IMG/VR virus record: IMGVR_UViG_3300017987_000317
Span: 1-26,640 of that record
Source of the DNA: a virus
Direction: 5' to 3' (one strand)
Length of the DNA: 26,640 bases
Of the stretch, positions 11,894 to 19,684 are shown in pieces. A model generated the notes under the pieces. The model was given only the letters and a program-made list of their open reading frames with translations, made no database searches and had not been told where the DNA came from. Every line of letters begins with the position of its first letter. The stretch's first letter is position 1. Position numbers and translations under genes: made by a program.

Positions 11894-12286
11894 TTATTGG
11901 CTCATTAGTTTTATAAATTTATCATAACCTGCCCTTTGCCCTTTCTTCATGAACTTGTATTTTGGCTCATGGTATTTAGCGTAATAAGCTACTAATACAA
12001 TCGGCTTAGTATCAGGGTCTGACTTGTCTAAATCATCTTTATTTGCACCTGTTATTAATTCTTGACCGTAACCATTATCAATAGGATGAGCTACTAAAGA
12101 ACTTCTTAATCTACCTGTATCAACTAAGCCCGCATTTGTTACTGTTAGCTTTGCCACACTTTCCATTTCCTTACCCGCTATTTTCATTCGGTTCTTTATA
12201 AGAGTACTGTTTTTTGTTTTGAACTTTTTTAAATTCTTCTTAAAAGCATTCATTTCCTTTTGCGATATGGTAAGCGTTACACTCAT
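11894..12286 (-). CDS. HK97 gp10-like head-tail joining protein
   Basis: A 130-aa protein with a basic helical start (MNAFKKNLKKFKTKNSTLIKNR), then MKIAGKEMESVAKLTVTNAGLVDTGRLRSSLVAHP, where AxxxVDTGRLRxSL is the hallmark of the HK97 gp10/phage minor tail family, and a late YYAKYHEPKYKFMKKGQ corresponding to the usual Y-A-x-x-x-E motif. It connects the head completion proteins to the tail. The gene overlaps its neighbour upstream by 4 nt and directly precedes the tail terminator-like gene. Confidence 0.88.
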   Translation of the reverse strand: MSVTLTISQKEMNAFKKNLKKFKTKNSTLIKNRMKIAGKEMESVAKLTVTNAGLVDTGRLRSSLVAHPIDNGYGQELITGANKDDLDKSDPDTKPIVLVAYYAKYHEPKYKFMKKGQRAGYDKFIKLMSQ

Positions 12287-12618
12287 TCTATCCCTTGTGC
12301 TAATATCTTATAAGTAACTAAATCAACTTTATCAATACTTGTAATATGTAGCTGCCTATTATCCCAATCTACCCTATCACCTACGCCAACTGTTAAACCA
12401 TCTAAGCGCACTTTTATTTCAAATACTTCGGCATACTGCAGGCCACCTTCGCCCACGTCCATTTTTTCACTCTTAAAAGTAACATTTGCCCAACGTTCAA
12501 CGCCTGAGCCTGTGCTTAATGCAGGGTTACCATAAACATCTCTTGCACCTTCTGTTTGGCTGTAAAAAGTAACTCTAAAATCAAAGTCACCAATATTTAT
12601 TGAAGCTATTCTACTCAA
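12283..12618 (-). CDS. Head closure / head-tail adaptor protein
   Basis: A 111-aa beta-barrel type protein of the SPP1 gp16/head-tail adaptor family: FDFRVTFYSQTEGARDVYGNPALSTG, then RWANVTFKSEKMDVGEGGLQYAEVFEIKVRLDG, and GDRVDWDNRQLHITSIDKVD. The pattern of a strand, a D-x-YGNP loop, a W-A-x-V strand and a late V-x-W-D-x-R-x-x-x-I-x-S segment is characteristic. It closes the portal after packaging. The start overlaps the end of a glycosyltransferase-like gene (12611-13294) by 8 nt, an unusual neighbour for this conserved module. Confidence 0.87.
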   Translation of the reverse strand: MSRIASINIGDFDFRVTFYSQTEGARDVYGNPALSTGSGVERWANVTFKSEKMDVGEGGLQYAEVFEIKVRLDGLTVGVGDRVDWDNRQLHITSIDKVDLVTYKILAQGIE

Positions 12619-13294
12619 AACTAATATTTGGCATTAAAGATAATACTTTTTCACCTTCTACTTTTTCGCCCTGTGTTTCAAACTCTTCAAAGTTGTGTAT
12701 ATTCTCATAGCTCTTAACATCAACTATTTGCGGCTCTTTAAAATTCACTATAGTAGGTATAAACCCTGCACGAAATAATAACTTTTCACTATAATTATCT
12801 AAGCTACTTTGCTGCTTCTTATCCCATAGAGTTCCGTTAAATTTTTCTAATAATCTATGCGAATAAAGCCTACCTGCGCCTAATGTCTTGCAAACAGGGT
12901 GATTATACTTAAAACTAATAGCCTTGCCCGTGAACATTTGGTAAAAATAAAGCTCATTAGTACCTGCAAAATCTACTTTTAAAGCGTTTATTAATTCAAT
13001 GTACGCAACACTTAAAAAGTCATCACTACCCACACATAAATAATAATCGTCTTTGTGCGTTTTAATCATGTTACTTGTTAGGTAGTTCCATTTATCACCT
13101 AAGAAAGTATTAGGATATTTAACCGCGCTATCTTGCTCTCTTATAAACTCTTCTATGGCTTCAAAATCTTCTTCATCGCTATAACATAGGCTTATTGGTA
13201 AATCTAACTTTGTAGCTTCTCTTAGATAGTCTAAATGCCAAAAAAAAGCGCGTGTTAGTTCGCGCCTTCCATGTATGCAGGTAAATATTCTCAT
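12611..13294 (-). CDS. GT-A-like glycosyltransferase inside the connector operon
   Basis: A 227-aa protein with a GT-A-type layout: an N-terminal MRIFTCIHGR strand, a glycosyltransferase-like NYLTSNMIKTHKDDYYLCVGSDDFLSV with a GSDD motif at residues 89-92 (a candidate DXD-type nucleotide-sugar/metal site), and GAGRLYSHRLLEKFNGTLWD at 139-158. The same three blocks appear in the protein at 17186-17872, so the two are distant paralogues. Its start overlaps the upstream connector gene by 4 nt and its end overlaps the head closure gene by 8 nt. It is therefore produced with the late head proteins, which suggests modification of the virion. Donor and acceptor are unknown, and DNA as acceptor is not excluded. 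Confidence 0.7.
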   Translation of the reverse strand: MRIFTCIHGRRELTRAFFWHLDYLREATKLDLPISLCYSDEEDFEAIEEFIREQDSAVKYPNTFLGDKWNYLTSNMIKTHKDDYYLCVGSDDFLSVAYIELINALKVDFAGTNELYFYQMFTGKAISFKYNHPVCKTLGAGRLYSHRLLEKFNGTLWDKKQQSSLDNYSEKLLFRAGFIPTIVNFKEPQIVDVKSYENIHNFEEFETQGEKVEGEKVLSLMPNISFE

Positions 13295-13875
13295 ATCATT
13301 TGGTTCACATCCATAAACGGCTCTAATAAAAAGCGGGTGGTATTACTTAACCTGCCCACGCTTTCACCTACTACATCATTGCCCCTGTAATTATATAAAT
13401 CTGCAATCATTTTATATAATGCAGGCTCAATATTTGGGTCAACAAAATCAGCCGTTAAAGTAGCTGTTAGTATTATTTCAATCCCTGTACTCACGTAATT
13501 AAAACTACTCTTATTAATGCTAACCCTATTTTGATTAACATAATAATCTGTATTCTCAACTAATGCTTCTGTGGTGTTTTCGTACTTGTAACTAATACTA
13601 ATATTTGAGTAAGTACACCTATAAGGTATTGTTATATCTATTTGAGTGCCTTTGCTTTCAATATCATAATACCGTGCGCTTAATGTACCATCGCATAACG
13701 CCCTATTTGTCATTTGCTCGAATTGGCTTTGCGCTGCATTAGTTAAAGCAGTTATTAGAGTATTCTCAGCCGTTACGTTAGCTTCTTGCTTTAAGTAATT
13801 CTTAACCTGTGCATCAGTTAAATAATCCCATGCAGGGGTAGTTTTAGTGGCTTCAATACTATAATAAGTCTGCAT
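13291..13875 (-). CDS. Head-tail connector (gp6-like) protein
   Basis: A 194-aa protein with the helical adaptor pattern of HK97 gp6/SPP1 gp15: WDYLTDAQVKNYLKQEANVT at the start, then LITALTNAAQSQFEQMTNRAL with the conserved E-x-x-T-x-R-x-L, a beta insertion in the middle (YYDIESKGTQIDITIPY), and a C-terminal helix PALYKMIADLYNYRGND. These form a dodecameric ring below the portal. It shares one base with the preceding gene and overlaps the glycosyltransferase-like gene by 4 nt. Confidence 0.88.
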   Translation of the reverse strand: MQTYYSIEATKTTPAWDYLTDAQVKNYLKQEANVTAENTLITALTNAAQSQFEQMTNRALCDGTLSARYYDIESKGTQIDITIPYRCTYSNISISYKYENTTEALVENTDYYVNQNRVSINKSSFNYVSTGIEIILTATLTADFVDPNIEPALYKMIADLYNYRGNDVVGESVGRLSNTTRFLLEPFMDVNQMI

Positions 13876-14162
13876 TATTTTGGTGCTTTAAGGTAACACA
13901 ATACTTTACCGCTTGCCCATGTAACAGAAGTAAAATGTCCGTAAACAATACCACCCGCTATTATAGTTTCTGAGCTGCTTAGGTCATCACCATATTTAGT
14001 AACAGCCGTTACCGTGCTATCTTCTAAGGCTTGTATTGCATAAAACTCATCACCTGCATCTGTTGCGCCTGAGCTTAATACTACAAATCCGTTTTGCCCT
14101 AACACACCATCATAATAATCTGTGCTTCTTGAATACTCAGGCCTTCTTGCTGAACTTGGCAT
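13875..14162 (-). CDS. Small virion protein, probable head decoration or fibre
   Basis: A 95-aa protein with a polar N-terminal arm (MPSSARRPEYSRSTDYYDG) and a beta-rich body: FVVLSSGATDAG, FYAIQALEDSTVTAVTKYGD and IIAGGIVYGHFTSVTWASGK. This FxAIQxLEDSTxT ... GxxYGxFTSxTxASG pattern is common in small structural proteins of phages and usually reflects a trimerising beta domain. It sits downstream of the capsid gene, where decoration proteins are often found. Role inferred from pattern and position. Confidence 0.6.
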   Translation of the reverse strand: MPSSARRPEYSRSTDYYDGVLGQNGFVVLSSGATDAGDEFYAIQALEDSTVTAVTKYGDDLSSSETIIAGGIVYGHFTSVTWASGKVLCYLKAPK

Positions 14163-14163
14163 T

Positions 14164-14439
14164 TTATAATTCTTTTATTCTTTTATTTATGGCTTCTATA
14201 ACCACGTTTCTTTTTTCACCTATTAGCATTTCTTGTAATTTAGCTATTGACCTTTTACGCCCTATTTGCTCTAATAGTTCGGTGGGTATTGGCTCACGTC
14301 TTACAGGTGTTTTAATCTCTACAATAAAGCCTTTTTTAATTAGCTGTTGCGCTATTACTTCATTATAGGTGTACTTAGTGCCACGGGTTAAAACTCCATC
14401 TTTTGAATCGTGATTTTTAATAACTAAATATTCTTTCAT
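14164..14439 (-). CDS. Hypothetical head-module protein
   Basis: A 91-aa protein with an N-terminal beta segment (MKEYLVIKNHDSKDGVLTRGTKYTYNE), a helix QQLIKKGFIVEI, and a basic helical C-terminal half ending IEAINKRIKEL. The N-terminal half looks like the small beta domain (strand, turn G, Y-x-x-x-x-A-x-x-L-I-x-x-G) found in other short head-module proteins. It follows the terminator after the capsid gene, so its transcription must depend on readthrough or an unseen promoter. Confidence 0.6.
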   Translation of the reverse strand: MKEYLVIKNHDSKDGVLTRGTKYTYNEVIAQQLIKKGFIVEIKTPVRREPIPTELLEQIGRKRSIAKLQEMLIGEKRNVVIEAINKRIKEL

Positions 14440-14450
14440 GTTATTTTATT

Positions 14451-14479
14451 AAAAAGGGGTAGCGGTTAAACTACCCCTT
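14451..14479 (-). terminator. Hairpin terminator after the capsid gene
   Basis: On the minus strand a 9-bp perfect stem AAGGGGTAG / CTACCCCTT (plus positions 14454-14462 and 14471-14479) with an 8-nt loop is followed by T residues. It lies 23 nt after the capsid stop and before the head-connector genes, so it may lower their expression relative to capsid. Confidence 0.8.
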
Positions 14480-14501
14480 AAAGGGCATTTATGAGTAAGA
14501 A

Positions 14502-15716
14502 CTATGAGCCTGCTACTAATTTCGCCAAATCATCAGATACATCACCATAAATAAATCCTTCATTATAGAATTTACCTAAGGTTAATCTACCTTCAATTCT
14601 AATGGTTACTAAGTTCTCTTGGAAGTTAGTGCCATCTTCTGTACTAAAGTCAATTCTTAAACCTTGTCGGTCGAAGATTTGCGCCGAGTTAGTCCAATCA
14701 CCGATTATGTAGTCGTTATTGGTTACAGCTGTGTTTCTAAATACGTTAATGCCGTAGATGTTAATTGCGCCAATGTTGCCATCCCAATAAGCATCTTTAA
14801 CGTAGCGACCATCTGCATCTTTAGAACGTACTAATTGAGCGTACTGAGTAGGGTTCAATAACATACCATTCGCCATGTACTCAGCGTTCTCTAATTGCGT
14901 TGCTGCTTGGATAATCAAGTCAACAATAGTGGCATTAGTATCGGCAGGGTCAACGGCTGTAAATGTTGCGGCGTTAACTGTTAGGCCTTCTATTTGGCTT
15001 GAACCTGTACCGTAAAGAAGTTGTTGGTCTTCTTTGTTTCTGTACTTGTTAGTCAATCTGTTTACGATAAACGATTGTAGGCCTGCTGTATCGTTCAAAA
15101 TCTCTTCTGAAGCTACAACTCTACCCGCTATTTTGTAAACGTTGTAATCAGTAGTTGCGATATCAAAATCAACGGCAGGTTTAGTGCCTGCTTCTGCTGT
15201 GATGTTAACAGCACCTTCGCCACCTGTTTCTTTTGGTATTCTTACCACATCGCTATTAGTTGTACCTTGTGGCAACAAAGAACGTACGTGTACACGTCTA
15301 TCCATTAATGGCACAATGTTAAGCGTATCGGCAGGGATAACTTCACCTGTGTAGCTGTTGGCAACGGTCATAGTACCAACGGCTTTGCCCGTCATTCCTA
15401 AGTCGATGTGACCACGTCCACGGTCTTTTAATCTCTCAATAAAATCAACGTCCATTTTTTGGCTTAGAACGTTTGCAAAAGATTTGTTTTCTAAGGTTGC
15501 GTTACCTTCCTTAGCCATCTTTTGAATCTTAGCTTCTAAAGCATCATTTTGCTCGCTTATAGCCTTGATTTTTTCATCTCTATCGGCTAAAGATTTGGTT
15601 AATTCTTCTTGCGCTTGCTTTCTTAAAGTTGCGCTTGTTTCTAATGAAGCCTTTTCGATTTTCTTCTCAATTGATGAGTCGAGAGCTTCAATTTGCTTTT
15701 TAATTTCTTCTGACAT
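14502..15716 (-). CDS. Major capsid protein, HK97 fold
   Basis: A 404-aa HK97-type capsid precursor. Residues 1-75 are a charged coiled coil (KKQIEALDSSIEKKIEKA, DRDEKIKAISEQNDALEAK), the delta/scaffolding domain that the protease normally removes. The body has family segments in order: SLLPQGTTNSDVVRIPKET, YNVYKIAGRVVASEEILNDTAG, NRLTNKYRNKEDQQLLYG, GMLLNPTQYAQLVRSKDADG and, at the end, FSTEDGTNFQENLVTIRIEGRL. It follows the protease gene by 3 nt and is followed by a strong hairpin terminator. The absence of a separate scaffold gene fits the fused delta domain. Confidence 0.95.
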   Translation of the reverse strand: MSEEIKKQIEALDSSIEKKIEKASLETSATLRKQAQEELTKSLADRDEKIKAISEQNDALEAKIQKMAKEGNATLENKSFANVLSQKMDVDFIERLKDRGRGHIDLGMTGKAVGTMTVANSYTGEVIPADTLNIVPLMDRRVHVRSLLPQGTTNSDVVRIPKETGGEGAVNITAEAGTKPAVDFDIATTDYNVYKIAGRVVASEEILNDTAGLQSFIVNRLTNKYRNKEDQQLLYGTGSSQIEGLTVNAATFTAVDPADTNATIVDLIIQAATQLENAEYMANGMLLNPTQYAQLVRSKDADGRYVKDAYWDGNIGAINIYGINVFRNTAVTNNDYIIGDWTNSAQIFDRQGLRIDFSTEDGTNFQENLVTIRIEGRLTLGKFYNEGFIYGDVSDDLAKLVAGS

Positions 15717-15719
15717 TTT

Positions 15720-16403
15720 TTAGTCTTTTTGAAGTGATTTAAAATAATTGTTAATATCAAAGTCAATCGGCTCATTATTTTCTTGAGTGCTTTCTTGCGG
15801 CTCACTATTAATAATAAGTGATTTTATTCTTTCCAATTCTATTTCAAGCATTGCAAATGTGTCGTCTGTGTACGTTCCTTTTCGCATTGCTTTTATTAGT
15901 ATATCCATTCTACTAAATAGCTCTTGCTTATCTTGCTTTGTTAGGCTTTTCATACTAACAACAGGTGTATTTTCATTAGCTCCCCACGTTACAGAACTAT
16001 ATTCAAATAATTTAGTTTCTTTTATATAGTTAGTTTCTTCGTTTTTTACATACTCTTCTTGAATAGGTATAATACCCACACTATGCTCAGTTATTAGCCC
16101 ATCTTCATACATTTTACGATAATCACCGCCTTTTAAATCGCTAACATAAGATGTTATTAAAAGCCCTGTATTATCTTCAATCATTTCAATAGGCTTGCCT
16201 ATAATGGTATTTGTATCGTGCTGAAATAGGTGCTTAATTCGGTGTGCGTTTTCTGTTATAGTTTTTTTGTAAGCTCCTTTAACTATAACATCACCGTGAG
16301 CATCTTTATTACCAAATGCGCTCACATACATTTGAATTTGACCTTTAGACATATCCATGTCCTTAATTTTTAGGTCAATATCTTTTGTAATAAACTGCTT
16401 CAT
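15720..16403 (-). CDS. Prohead protease, HK97 family
   Basis: A 227-aa serine protease that matures the capsid. Family motifs are visible: IQMYVSAFGNKDAHGDVIVKG, KHLFQHDTNTIIGKP with the catalytic His (H62, or H58), DGLITEHSVGI with the catalytic Ser (S108), and LFEYSSVTWGANENTPV. I start at the ATG at 16403. The open frame runs on to 16478, but that extension passes through the -7 element (16421-16428) and the terminator hairpin (16444-16469), and would add a non-family hydrophobic N terminus. The C-terminal 70 residues are acidic and may be a self-cleaved or scaffold-binding tail. It precedes the capsid gene in the same unit. Confidence 0.92.
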   Translation of the reverse strand: MKQFITKDIDLKIKDMDMSKGQIQMYVSAFGNKDAHGDVIVKGAYKKTITENAHRIKHLFQHDTNTIIGKPIEMIEDNTGLLITSYVSDLKGGDYRKMYEDGLITEHSVGIIPIQEEYVKNEETNYIKETKLFEYSSVTWGANENTPVVSMKSLTKQDKQELFSRMDILIKAMRKGTYTDDTFAMLEIELERIKSLIINSEPQESTQENNEPIDFDINNYFKSLQKD

Positions 16404-16420
16404 GTTCAAAGTAATTATTA

Positions 16421-16428
16421 CAAAAATA
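16421..16428 (-). promoter_or_regulatory. Promoter -7 element for protease and capsid
   Basis: Minus-strand TATTTTTG fits TAnnTTTG, 17 nt upstream of the protease ATG and directly downstream of the terminator hairpin of the sugar cassette. It has no regulon boxes and no palindrome, so it is probably a late or constitutive promoter. Confidence 0.55.
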
Positions 16429-16443
16429 CTAATAATAATAAAT

Positions 16444-16469
16444 AAAAAAGCCCCGTCGTTAAACAGGGC
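16444..16469 (-). terminator. Hairpin terminator of the sugar cassette
   Basis: Minus-strand stem GCCCTG / CGGGGC (with one G-T pair) around an 8-nt loop, followed by six T. It lies 35 nt after the stop of the gene at 16504-16725 and before the protease promoter. Confidence 0.78.
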
Positions 16470-16503
16470 TTCAATCAAAAATCAAACAGTAGTAAAGTGG
16501 AAG

Positions 16504-16725
16504 CTATGGAAGGGCAATATTAACTAATTCTGTTAACTTATAGTTTGCGCAATACGTTATATTTTCTACAATAAAGCCAAAGCATTCATTGTTCTCAGCA
16601 TACACCTTAACAATATCTTCTTTAATATCATGCTTTACACAAATAGCATCAAGCCTATCAAATAGCTCATCTGTTGTAATGTAAAAAAAAGGTAGTTCTT
16701 TTAGCGGGTAGATTTCTTTGCTCAT
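16504..16725 (-). CDS. Hypothetical protein at the end of the sugar cassette
   Basis: A 73-aa acidic protein beginning MSKEIYPLKELPFFYITTDELF, with KHDIKEDIVKVYAENNECFGFIVENI, ending LTELVNIALP. I do not recognise the family. Its ATG follows directly after the stop of the second acyltransferase gene, with no gap, and the cassette terminator lies just downstream, so it is the last gene of this unit. It may be unrelated to sugar metabolism. Confidence 0.6.
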   Translation of the reverse strand: MSKEIYPLKELPFFYITTDELFDRLDAICVKHDIKEDIVKVYAENNECFGFIVENITYCANYKLTELVNIALP

Positions 16726-17193
16726 TTATTTTAGTTTAGCAGGGTTGCCGTAATAAGTTCCTTCAATGGTTAAATCGTTCACAACATTTGCGCCCATGCC
16801 TACAATAATGTTGTTAGTAATGCACTTTCTATTTCTCAGATTAACCCTTGCCTTTATCTTGTTATTATCACCAATACAAGCATAGCCCAATATCAAGCAC
16901 CCTGCCCCTATTTCATTGTTGCTACCTATGCTCACGTTATGCGCTATGTTGGTCAAGTTCATTATTATATTATTGCTACCTATTAGCGTTATCCCATCTT
17001 CGCCAATGTTTACAACACAATTAGCCCCTATGTAATTATTGTTACCTATTACTACTTTGCCGTTGTAGTCTTTAAGTTTTGAGCCCCTTATTGCTCCAAA
17101 GTTGCCTATAACAGCACCTGCACAAATTACATTGCCCGTGCCTAATTCTACATTGGGCATTATAACGGCCTTAGGGTGGATGTAGTTACTCAT
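16726..17193 (-). CDS. Hexapeptide-repeat (LbH) acyltransferase, LpxA/LpxD-like
   Basis: A 155-aa left-handed beta-helix acyltransferase. It starts IHPKAVIMPNVELGTGNVI, as LpxA-type enzymes do, and continues with hexapeptide repeats of the [LIV]-G-x-N-x-x type, for example VVIGNNNYIGANCVV and LIGSNNIIMNL. NIAHNVSIGSNNEIG contains a His (H85) at the position of the catalytic His in LpxD/LpxA enzymes, which transfer acyl groups from acyl-ACP or acetyl-CoA. The end TYYGNPAKL matches the terminal GxPAK of sugar O- and N-acetyltransferases. It overlaps the glycosyltransferase-like gene by 8 nt. Substrate unknown; an amino sugar or sugar nucleotide is likely from context. Confidence 0.82.
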   Translation of the reverse strand: MSNYIHPKAVIMPNVELGTGNVICAGAVIGNFGAIRGSKLKDYNGKVVIGNNNYIGANCVVNIGEDGITLIGSNNIIMNLTNIAHNVSIGSNNEIGAGCLILGYACIGDNNKIKARVNLRNRKCITNNIIVGMGANVVNDLTIEGTYYGNPAKLK

Positions 17194-17872
17194 AATTATA
17201 ATAATCTTTAGTTGCTCCGATATATTGCCACTTATGCGGCCTAATTGCGCTTAGGTTGCTTTCTGTTTTAAAGTCGATAATATAACCGCCATCAATATCA
17301 ATACACCAATAATAATGGCTTTTAGGGTTTGCTTTTTTTATCCTATCGCTTGCAGGTTTATCCAATCCACGCTTTACTATTGTTTCATCCCATAGCTTCC
17401 AATTTAAACGCTCTAACAAGCCCTTAGAAAGTATGCGACCAACTGCTAAGGGTTCTAAGTATCTCTTATGTGTTACATCGTAACCCTGAGAATAATAAAG
17501 GCTTTGTTTGTAGTTGTAAAAAATGTCATAAGGTGCAATATGCTCAAACCCTTCGTTCATATACTTTAGGCAATAAGCAAAAGCGGGAATGCTTATAATA
17601 TCATCCGAACCCAAAAATAAATAATAGTCTGCGTTAGTATCTTTTGCTCTCTCTAATCTGTATTGTGCTTTAGCCCCTATTGGTAGGTTCTGATAATAGG
17701 AATAAGTAAAACCGTGTTTAGTTGCAGCACGTTTACAGATAGGAGTTGAACCAACTACCACCACATTAAACTCAATATCCTTAAAATGGTTTATTAGTTT
17801 TTTTACGTTACAAGCATAAATATCAAACACCTTCTCACGCTTATACATTATGGTAGTTATGGTTACCTTCAT
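17186..17872 (-). CDS. GT-A-like glycosyltransferase in the sugar cassette
   Basis: A 228-aa protein with MKVTITTIMYKREKVFDIYA at the start (beta strand then helix, as in GT2-type enzymes), VVVVGSTP in the second strand, and RLERAKDTNADYYLFLGSDD, with GSDD at residues 88-91 as candidate nucleotide-sugar/metal site. AVGRILSKGLLERLNWKLWD (143-162) parallels GAGRLYSHRLLEKFNGTLWD of the paralogue at 12611-13294. It overlaps the upstream acyltransferase by 4 nt (ATGA) and the downstream one by 8 nt, so all are coupled. It probably transfers the sugar made or modified by its neighbours. Acceptor unknown (capsid protein, host surface glycan or DNA are possible). Short length lacks a membrane domain. 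Confidence 0.75.
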   Translation of the reverse strand: MKVTITTIMYKREKVFDIYACNVKKLINHFKDIEFNVVVVGSTPICKRAATKHGFTYSYYQNLPIGAKAQYRLERAKDTNADYYLFLGSDDIISIPAFAYCLKYMNEGFEHIAPYDIFYNYKQSLYYSQGYDVTHKRYLEPLAVGRILSKGLLERLNWKLWDETIVKRGLDKPASDRIKKANPKSHYYWCIDIDGGYIIDFKTESNLSAIRPHKWQYIGATKDYYNYE

Positions 17873-18345
17873 TTCAAAAGTTTAGCAGGTACACCGCCCC
17901 AAGTTCTATTTGGCTCGTTTATATCCTTGTTCACAAAACTTTTACTTGCAATAACGCTATAAGGCGCAACAGTTACCCCATGATGAAAAGTAACATTTGT
18001 TCCTACAAATACATTATAACTTAATTGTGCGCCCCCTATTTTGTTGCCTTGAGTATCTAAGTTAGCAAACATAGTTTGTGGGCTTAAAAAACAATTATCA
18101 CCGATAAAAGAACCACGAGCTATAACGCAATTATTGCGAATAGTTACATTATTGCCAATAGTTGAGCCACCTGTAAAGGTGCAACCGCTATCAATGTAGC
18201 AGTTCTCGCCAATTGTAACATTTGCTCTTATTTCAATATTTCGTTTTAGCTTAGTCCCTTCGCCTATTCTCACCGTGTGGTGTATGTAGTTATTATAAGC
18301 TAACCTTTGCCACGTTCTAAACCAATATGTGTTAATGTTGCTCAT
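17869..18345 (-). CDS. Hexapeptide-repeat N-acetyltransferase, WbpD/WlbB-like
   Basis: A 158-aa left-handed beta-helix protein. IHHTVRIGEGTKLKRNIEI, VTIGENCYIDSGCTF, GSTIGNNVTIRNNCVI and GSFIGDNCFLSPQTMFANLD are successive hexapeptide coils; the last, with the loop P-x-x-x-F-x-N, resembles the acceptor-binding loop of WbpD/WlbB, which N-acetylate UDP-2-acetamido-3-amino sugars. The NVTFHHGVTVAPYSVIASKSF stretch and the terminal WGGVPAKLLK are typical of the family. It directly follows a WlbA/WbpB-like oxidoreductase with 14 nt overlap, the same pairing as in 2,3-diacetamido-sugar pathways. Exact substrate is inference. Confidence 0.8.
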   Translation of the reverse strand: MSNINTYWFRTWQRLAYNNYIHHTVRIGEGTKLKRNIEIRANVTIGENCYIDSGCTFTGGSTIGNNVTIRNNCVIARGSFIGDNCFLSPQTMFANLDTQGNKIGGAQLSYNVFVGTNVTFHHGVTVAPYSVIASKSFVNKDINEPNRTWGGVPAKLLK

Positions 18346-19132
18346 TTATCCTTTCTATTAGTTGAATACTCTTTTTTGCTTCTGTAATATCAAAGCCCTT
18401 GCCTTCTAAAATTCGCTTATAGCTTAGGGTGTGCGCATCTGTAAAACCTTTTGTAAGGTCTAACACCATACCATCAACTTTAAACTCTCTAACAGGCTGT
18501 TTTGCATCTTCAAAAGATGTACTTAGTGAGTAGTAAGCTATACTTTTTCTAAAGTAAATAACGCCATCTGAAACATCATAAACATCACCCCAAATGTGGG
18601 TTAATAAATCAAAAAGATGAATACCAATGTTAAAGAGTTTGCCCCCGCTTTTGTTTACGTCACCTTTCCAACTTTTCGTGTACCAATCGCCGCGCGGGGT
18701 GTGGTAAGTTACTTCTATTTTATTGCCATTGCTTAAAGATGCGTATTCCTTCAATAGCTCTACCATAGGATTAAGCCTAAGCTGCAAAATACAATTAATG
18801 CTAACCCCTTTTAAATTGGCTAATGCTTTTAATTCGTCTATTTGGTGCGATTGTAAAACCACAGGCTTTTCACAAATCACATTACAACCTTTTTTAATTG
18901 CTTCCTTTATATGGTCATAGTGTAAGAAGTTAGGAGTGCAAATACTTACATAATCGGGCTTAGTTGTTAGCTTAGTAGAGTATTTACAGTTAGGGAAATA
19001 TCGGTCTATAATCCCTACCGAATCATTAACATCTACTATTTCTATTAACTCACAGCCGTTAGCTTTAATAGCTTCAATGTGTTTAGGGGCTATGTAACCA
19101 CCTGCCCCTATTAATGCGAATGTTTTACTCAT
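18332..19132 (-). CDS. Gfo/Idh/MocA oxidoreductase, WlbA/WbpB-like UDP-sugar dehydrogenase
   Basis: A 266-aa NAD-dependent oxidoreductase. The N terminus FALIGAGGYIAPKHIEAI is the dinucleotide-binding turn and closely resembles that of WlbA/WbpB, including VNDSVGIIDRYFP, a hallmark of these UDP-N-acetylglucosaminuronate 3-dehydrogenases. CEKPVV holds the EKP motif (E88-P90), and GGKLFNIGIHLFDLL the catalytic His region, which in WbpB reads similarly. In known pathways the enzyme oxidises C3, an aminotransferase (WbpE) then adds an amine and WbpD acetylates it. No aminotransferase is in this window. At 266 aa it is somewhat shorter than typical 310-350 aa members, with a reduced C-terminal part. 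It starts directly at the stop of the previous gene. Confidence 0.85.
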   Translation of the reverse strand: MSKTFALIGAGGYIAPKHIEAIKANGCELIEIVDVNDSVGIIDRYFPNCKYSTKLTTKPDYVSICTPNFLHYDHIKEAIKKGCNVICEKPVVLQSHQIDELKALANLKGVSINCILQLRLNPMVELLKEYASLSNGNKIEVTYHTPRGDWYTKSWKGDVNKSGGKLFNIGIHLFDLLTHIWGDVYDVSDGVIYFRKSIAYYSLSTSFEDAKQPVREFKVDGMVLDLTKGFTDAHTLSYKRILEGKGFDITEAKKSIQLIERINEQH

Positions 19133-19605: not shown

Positions 19606-19684
19606 TTTGATGAATCAAAAGTAAAACAACATTTCACACCTAAGCAATGATTTCGATGAACTGCTTAATAGCTTCGATTAATAG
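19606..19684 (-). promoter_or_regulatory. Regulon promoter driving the small gene and sugar cassette
   Basis: The -7 element TACTTTTG is at 19616-19623. Plus-strand boxes TTCGATGAACTG (19652-19663) and TTCGATTAATAG (19673-19684) start 29 and 50 bp beyond it. The perfect palindrome TTTGATGAATCAAA is at 19606-19619. This copy alone has a TTG -33-like element (plus CAA 19645-19647, 21 bp from the -7). The distal box overlaps the stop codon of the minor head gene. Confidence 0.82.

Follow-up and report, generated by a model that had tools for sequence, protein, structure and literature searches.

Why would a tailed phage carry two small, similar proteins, one wedged between head-tail connector genes and the other placed in a separate sugar cassette? 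The question is raised by IMG/VR virus record IMGVR_UViG_3300017987_000317, of which positions 1 to 26,640 (26,640 nucleotides, hereafter the window) were analysed, and by two of its open reading frames (ORFs), P0001 (GT1, 227 amino acids, aa) and P0002 (GT2, 228 aa). From sequence and model, both are predicted to be soluble, metal-type (DxD) GT-A enzymes of one phage family ("GT2-type" below denotes the enzyme superfamily, GT2 alone the protein). An earlier note on this DNA had taken them for duplicated glycosyltransferase-like proteins, and both ORFs are indeed real, on the minus strand (Table 1).

Family, fold and origin of the pair

Taken singly, P0001 and P0002 fall below every Pfam, PHROG, NCBIfam and PDB-sequence threshold. 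BLASTP aligns them with each other at 32% identity across 106 aa (E 5e-8; 24% over a whole-length alignment), and the two common blocks reported by the earlier note are present and in order. DYYL-x-x-GSDD lies at residues 83-92 in GT1 and 82-91 in GT2, but G-R-x-x-S-x-x-LLE-x-x-N-x-x-LWD (about 139-158 and 143-162) is shifted by four residues and does not hold identical positions, as had been supposed. A profile made from P0001, P0002, the relatives L004 and L005 and the distant phage L018 drew further members from IMG/VR into an alignment of 23 sequences (A5), in which 14 residues are invariant: R10, S39, N62, K68, D83, GSDD89-92, W157, D166, D192, K194 and N198 (n=23). That a 23-member phage family keeps these residues places the resemblance of the pair, at the sequence level, beyond chance. 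PF00535 is matched at E<=1 by 17/23 members (best 3.7e-8), P0001 and P0002 themselves being without a match, and the family profile finds no PDB sequence at E<=1.

The AlphaFold2 model of P0001 computed on A5 (predicted local distance difference test, pLDDT, 89.4; predicted template modelling score 0.88) has 486 Foldseek matches in the PDB at E<=1e-3, many of them GT-A enzymes and the top one SpsA (E 1.1e-8, template modelling score, TM, 0.62), and it is matched at TM 0.86 by uncharacterised proteins of uncultured Caudovirales. The P0002 model, which was built from five sequences only (pLDDT 61) and is not used as stand-alone evidence, still has 113 PDB matches at E<=1e-3, to GT-A enzymes. In the P0001 model, GSDD comes after strand 84-87; it is invariant in 23/23 sequences and in register with the HGSDD motif of a canonical PF00535 protein, which in turn aligns with the DSDD and GADD motifs of heparosan synthase and WrtF, respectively. 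This tetrapeptide is predicted to occupy the DxD nucleotide-sugar/metal position, and the invariant D166 is a candidate catalytic base. Neither GT1 nor GT2 contains a membrane segment (maximum 19-residue hydropathy 1.2), and none is present in the cassette enzymes. The glycosyltransferase claim is thereby borne out by the predicted GT-A fold and by the PF00535 matches of other family members: the structure and profile comparisons returned no unrelated folds for either protein and placed GSDD at the nucleotide-sugar site, and we predict that both are GT-A/GT2-type glycosyltransferases of the PF00535 superfamily.

The duplication claim fared less well. One family, similar length and a shared phage would suit a recent duplication, with the two enzymes taking sequential steps on one acceptor, but the family tree joins P0002 and the glycosyltransferase of L028 as sisters (bootstrap 99-100), and the approximately unbiased (AU) test rejects a GT1+GT2 clade (p 0.0102 with L018, 0.00485 without this long-branched sequence). 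GT1 and GT2 are not each other's nearest relatives, and because of the L028 grouping and the rejected clade they were most likely acquired separately. Both branches are long, which softens the test, hence tree and test rule out duplication within this phage strongly rather than finally; we leave recent duplication a slim chance. Two separately acquired enzymes could still act in sequence.

The connector unit, the sugar cassette and their variants

GT1 is embedded as described earlier, by overlaps of 4 nt with the adaptor gene Ad1 and 8 nt with the head closure gene Hc1; the GT2 gene likewise overlaps its upstream acyltransferase by 4 nt and its downstream acyltransferase by 8 nt. GT1 sits between connector genes in every clade contig covering that locus (the window, its near-identical contig, L004 and L005), remains in L004 where the cassette is gone, and is under purifying selection (ratio of nonsynonymous to synonymous divergence, dN/dS, 0.06). 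Judging from the overlaps, its co-translation with the connector genes is likely. The stronger statement, that it must be co-translated with virion genes, goes too far: a family member lies opposite the virion-gene strand in L018, L032, L039, L041, L042 and L047-L050, so the family as a whole does not depend on being expressed together with virion genes.

GT2 comes third in a cassette with the order WlbA, HexA, GT2, HexB and a 73-aa ORF. The cassette had been labelled early-type; it is not in an early region but has the MuF-type head gene on one side and the prohead protease on the other, and it shares its strand with the structural genes. The closest solved relatives of its dehydrogenase are WbpB and WlbA, over the full length: the match to PDB 3oa2 spans residues 3-262, the next non-Wbp match in the PDB reaches only E 1.5e-11, and the EKP lysine and NIGxH histidine are kept in the alignment. 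Homologs of HexB come after the glycosyltransferase in many phages. No 6-dehydrogenase, aminotransferase or 2-epimerase was matched among the ORFs scanned or read in the window, which is partial.

Table 1. Features of the two units and their control elements (window positions)
Feature	Position	Strand	Evidence
GT1 (P0001, 227 aa), GT-A/GT2-type glycosyltransferase between Ad1 and Hc1 (predicted)	12611..13294	-	AlphaFold2 pLDDT 89.4; Foldseek SpsA E 1.1e-8; A5
GT2 (P0002, 228 aa), same family, sugar cassette (predicted)	17186..17872	-	BLASTP to GT1 E 5e-8; Foldseek GT-A matches on low-confidence model (pLDDT 61); A5
GT1 GSDD codons (residues 89-92), predicted DxD-equivalent site	13019..13030	-	invariant in 23 sequences; register with canonical GT2-type DSDD/GADD
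GT2 GSDD codons (residues 88-91)	17600..17611	-	A5
Exchanged GT1 segment, beginning at the GSDD codons; nucleotide identity to L005 0.62-0.72, flanks 0.88-0.95	12674..13033	-	
Ad1, head-tail adaptor (gp6-like), upstream neighbour of GT1	13291..13875	-	phrog_40 E 3e-7; TIGR02215 E 3e-7
Hc1, head closure (PF05521), downstream neighbour of GT1	12283..12618	-	PF05521 E 1.8e-8
WlbA/WbpB-like 3-dehydrogenase (Gfo/Idh/MocA) of UDP-N-acetylglucosaminuronic acid (UDP-GlcNAcA)	18332..19132	-	PF01408; PDB 3oa2 WbpB E 7.9e-55
HexA, left-handed beta-helix sugar N-acyltransferase (WlbB/QdtC/NeuD-like)	17869..18345	-	PF00132 E 5e-21; PDB 7s43 E 7e-11, 3mqg E 3e-8
HexB, hexapeptide acyltransferase (LpxD/LpxA/NeuD-like)	16726..17193	-	PF00132; PDB 2iu8 LpxD E 8e-15
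73-aa ORF, cassette end; its start is the right boundary in all three allelic states	16504..16725	-	
Promoter-like element TTG-N21-TACTTTTG, Bacteroidota type, one of four related window copies, upstream of the cassette	19616..19647	-	repetition upstream of four genes
Terminator-like hairpin between cassette and prohead protease, present also in L004	16447..16472	-	position, conservation
Terminator-like hairpin between major capsid protein gene and connector unit holding GT1, kept in L004 and L005	14454..14479	-	-15.7 to -17.0 kcal/mol

The promoter-like element upstream of the cassette has three counterparts: related intergenic copies of TAC(T/A)TTTGA(T/A)T(C/T)ATCAAA lie on the minus strand at 19616, about 21040, about 25040 and about 1620, each just 5' of a gene start. 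It is this repetition upstream of four genes that suggests a promoter, the loose pattern having 5 matches in the window versus 2.1 expected and the strict Bacteroidota pattern not being enriched there. Owing to these TAnnTTTG-type elements and to the relatives of the large terminase subunit (TerL) and portal in flavobacterial phages, the host is probably a member of the Bacteroidota. A generic terminator scan gave no more matches than shuffles, and both hairpins are proposed on position and conservation. The N-terminus listed for the prohead protease ORF (15720-16478) translates the hairpin next to it; the true start is probably the later MNMKQF. Of the two regulatory classes suggested by the earlier note, the division itself stands, in that the hairpins and the promoter-like element assign GT1 and GT2 to separate predicted transcription units, neither of which looks early.

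Close relatives share about 85-97% nucleotide identity with the window in most stretches of the head genes, whereas the cassette differs. L011, L014 and L015 have an intact WlbA directly before the 73-aa ORF (in L015, before the start of this ORF) and no HexA-GT2-HexB, and L004 keeps a scar of 32 codons, in which about 20 codons from the beginning of WlbA are joined in frame to about 12 from its end. As relatives retain either WlbA alone or this scar, sequence comparison indicates that WlbA is ancestral in the clade and that HexA-GT2-HexB either entered the lineage of the window or disappeared from the others.

Variation is also found inside genes. Compared with L005, GT1 identity falls from 0.95 to 0.62-0.72 within the segment given in Table 1 and then returns to 0.90. 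Relative to L004, synonymous divergence (dS) climbs from 0.44 in codons 1-88 to 1.32 in codons 89-227 (dN/dS of the latter 0.21), the neighbouring values being 0.41 for Ad1, 0.53 for Hc1 and 0.50 for the major capsid protein. Positive selection was considered for the drop in identity and rejected, because the jump in synonymous divergence indicates segment exchange instead. In WlbA the ends are conserved among the window, L011 and L014 (dS 0.12-0.48), but each of the three has a middle segment of its own (dS 1.1-1.8). For either enzyme class, binding of the nucleotide or cofactor falls to the conserved end, and the choice of substrate or acceptor is expected to lie with the variable part. It looks as if specificity segments of GT1 and WlbA have been exchanged between related phages, with purifying selection elsewhere. 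Further low-identity patches relative to L005 occur in otherwise 90-97% identical head genes, at 14714-14953 (major capsid protein) and 11963-12313 (gp10-like).

Candidate acceptors of the sugar

What do the two enzymes decorate? Our tentative answer, held at a little under even confidence, is that GT1 and GT2 serve the glycan decoration of the virion late in infection. Fold, family, DxD site, cassette membership and allele exchange are what the analysis shows; sugar, acceptor and timing are inferred as follows. WlbA would oxidise host-derived UDP-GlcNAcA, while amination and the 6-oxidation of UDP-N-acetylglucosamine (UDP-GlcNAc) would be supplied by the host, and acylation by HexA would give a 3-amino/3-acylamino uronic-acid nucleotide sugar. 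GT1, as a fixed member of the connector operon, and GT2, as part of a separable sugar cassette, would transfer sugars, and HexB would add an acyl group. Late in infection a surface glycan would be built, most probably on head, neck or tail proteins of the virion, and a swap of the enzymes' specificity halves would alter this glycan between related phages.

A virion protein is cautiously favoured as acceptor because GT1 has a fixed place in the connector operon, both glycosyltransferases are soluble and no membrane partners are seen; a host envelope glycan is a close rival, somewhat less probable but a real possibility. Several points weigh against decoration of the virion. The cassette chemistry (WlbA, AsnB, acyltransferases and sulfotransferase) is typical of O-antigen and capsule genes, and the cassette lies opposite the virion genes in L018 and in the lineages with sheath and GpA-type terminase, so it need not be co-expressed with them. 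Structural genes take up about half of a tailed-phage genome, which makes nearness to virion genes weak evidence.

If the envelope were the target, the glycosyltransferases and cassette would alter lipopolysaccharide (LPS), capsule or another surface glycan, either excluding superinfection or keeping released virions off debris. WlbA/WlbB, AsnB and hexapeptide enzymes are envelope-glycan genes (pathway in PMC10622841), WbpB appears in A-LPS of a Bacteroidota species (PMC4031482), and PMC11946311 offers envelope modification as one option for gp41 of phage phi18:1. The cassette, moreover, resembles a moron, with promoter-like and terminator-like elements of its own and an opposite-strand location in several phages. 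Nevertheless, neither a membrane nor a flippase partner is present in the window, GT1 is tied into the connector operon and persists in L004, which has lost the cassette, and envelope changes made late would have little time to act before lysis. A serotype-conversion (gtr) system in particular is disfavoured, because the glycosyltransferases and cassette enzymes have no membrane segment and no GtrA/GtrB-type membrane flippase or polyprenyl-phosphate glycosyltransferase partner was found beside either of the two in the window.

A third kind of acceptor, hydroxymethylated bases of the phage's own DNA, seems very improbable. DNA-modifying phage glycosyltransferases exist (Pyle 2024, as cited in PMC12619734), and in Nonlabens phage P12024L, a TerL relative, an annotated 2-oxoglutarate oxygenase adjoins an annotated DNA glucosyltransferase; yet neither the window, which covers part of the genome, nor those family loci whose gene neighbourhoods were read showed a recognisable TET/JBP-type oxygenase or hydroxymethylase close to the glycosyltransferases, and the partner enzymes are glycan-tailoring ones.

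The wider family and known systems

The glycosyltransferase family recurs in about 15 uncultured tailed-phage lineages (loci grouped by eye on partial contigs), usually in the order (GT2), GT, (sulfotransferase), AsnB-type amidotransferase, HexB and GTb, a second glycosyltransferase-like protein with no Pfam match. The set of GT, (sulfotransferase), AsnB, hexapeptide acyltransferase and GTb extends across L026-L052, in many unrelated uncultured tailed phages (e.g., L033:7001-11000 and L041:6135-10366). In L032, L039, L041 and L042 the locus is flanked by the genes for tail sheath and GpA-type terminase and has the opposite orientation (L047-L049 show the sheath side only), and in L028, L043, L044 and L046 it is upstream of head maturation proteases; L031 has its glycosyltransferase on the strand of the Ad1, Hc1, neck and tail-tube genes, and L018 carries HexB-GT-WlbA opposite the connectors. 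In most lineages, as counted without a null model, the family member is near sheath, terminase, head protease, tape or connector genes.

Myophage-type members (L036, L037, L039, L041, L045, L047 and L048) have an N-terminal extension of roughly 50-80 aa with weak likeness to the 91-aa protein preceding Ad1 (window 14164-14439; hhalign p 0.0016-0.0037, probability 9-16%), which makes fusion of the glycosyltransferase to a virion-type domain possible. WlbA-like dehydrogenases, mostly with a WlbB-like acyltransferase, also occur within or close to the head or packaging modules of various unrelated phages (L020-L024): between P22-like portal and capsid in L020 (similar order in L021), near a capsid gene in L023 and near a terminase gene in L024, while L022 holds a set of dehydrogenase, WlbB-like, DegT aminotransferase and WecB epimerase genes.

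Searches of 50,697 phage records with four different family members gave no match, and thus no isolated phage with the family, which would escape discovery through the usual isolates. A plasmid search gave one weak GT2-type match only, and two scans of genome contigs with narrow patterns gave no relative. Phage-encoded glycosyltransferases are common, but for most of them the target is not known; the present family comes with a conserved partner set and, in the clade of the window, is linked to a head-tail connector operon, and natural relatives that have the genes, have lost them or have swapped parts of them offer a direct test of whether phages outside mycobacteria glycosylate virions. On a broader and rather doubtful view, glycosyltransferase, AsnB-type amidotransferase, HexB and second glycosyltransferase (with or without sulfotransferase or WlbA) would form a widespread and hitherto undescribed system for building glycans in phages, in this case those of Bacteroidota, which coats virions with an acylated/amidated uronic-acid-type sugar and is diversified by swapping only the substrate/acceptor halves.

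Enzymes of the GT2 type and of the Wlb pathway have been described before, as has glycosylation of phage virions; what is new, as far as our tools show, is the glycosyltransferase family, the partner cassette conserved with it and the pattern of segment exchange. With the GT2-type superfamily (PF00535; SpsA, chondroitin and heparosan synthases, WrtF), the window proteins have the predicted GT-A fold and xDD metal site in common, but they fall below Pfam detection, have GxDD in place of DxD and belong to a family with motifs of its own (GAGR, LWD/LWE, LDN and DIKS-x-x-N). The Wlb/Wbp pathway to UDP-2,3-diacetamido-2,3-dideoxymannuronic acid (UDP-ManNAc3NAcA; WbpA-B-E-D-I) similarly has a WlbA/WbpB dehydrogenase (E 8e-55) adjoining a WlbB-like acyltransferase, whereas no 6-dehydrogenase, aminotransferase or epimerase was matched among the scanned or read ORFs of the window, and HexA matches WlbB weakly (E 3e-8).

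Among isolated flavophages, Cellulophaga phage phi18:1 (Helsingorvirus) carries gp41, a glycosyltransferase in the structural module, in the same gap between MuF and protease and with a related head gene order (PMC11946311); gp41 is, however, a 407-aa PF04765 TOD1/MUCI70-type enzyme of an unrelated family with a methyltransferase neighbour. Since an unrelated glycosyltransferase fills the same gap, this position is a recurrent site for such genes; in phi10:1 it contains only uncharacterised genes and two tRNAs. The precedent for decorated virions comes from mycobacteriophages, with glycans on capsid and tail tube (Freeman 2023, cited in PMC11256854 and PMC12619734), where phage-encoded glycosyltransferases are likewise thought to decorate the virions of Che8 and relatives. 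There the glycosyltransferase genes lie near the genome 3' end (Maravista, PMC11256854) and the glycans have been measured, whereas in the window a glycosyltransferase sits inside the connector operon and the cassette is predicted also to make and acylate the sugar.

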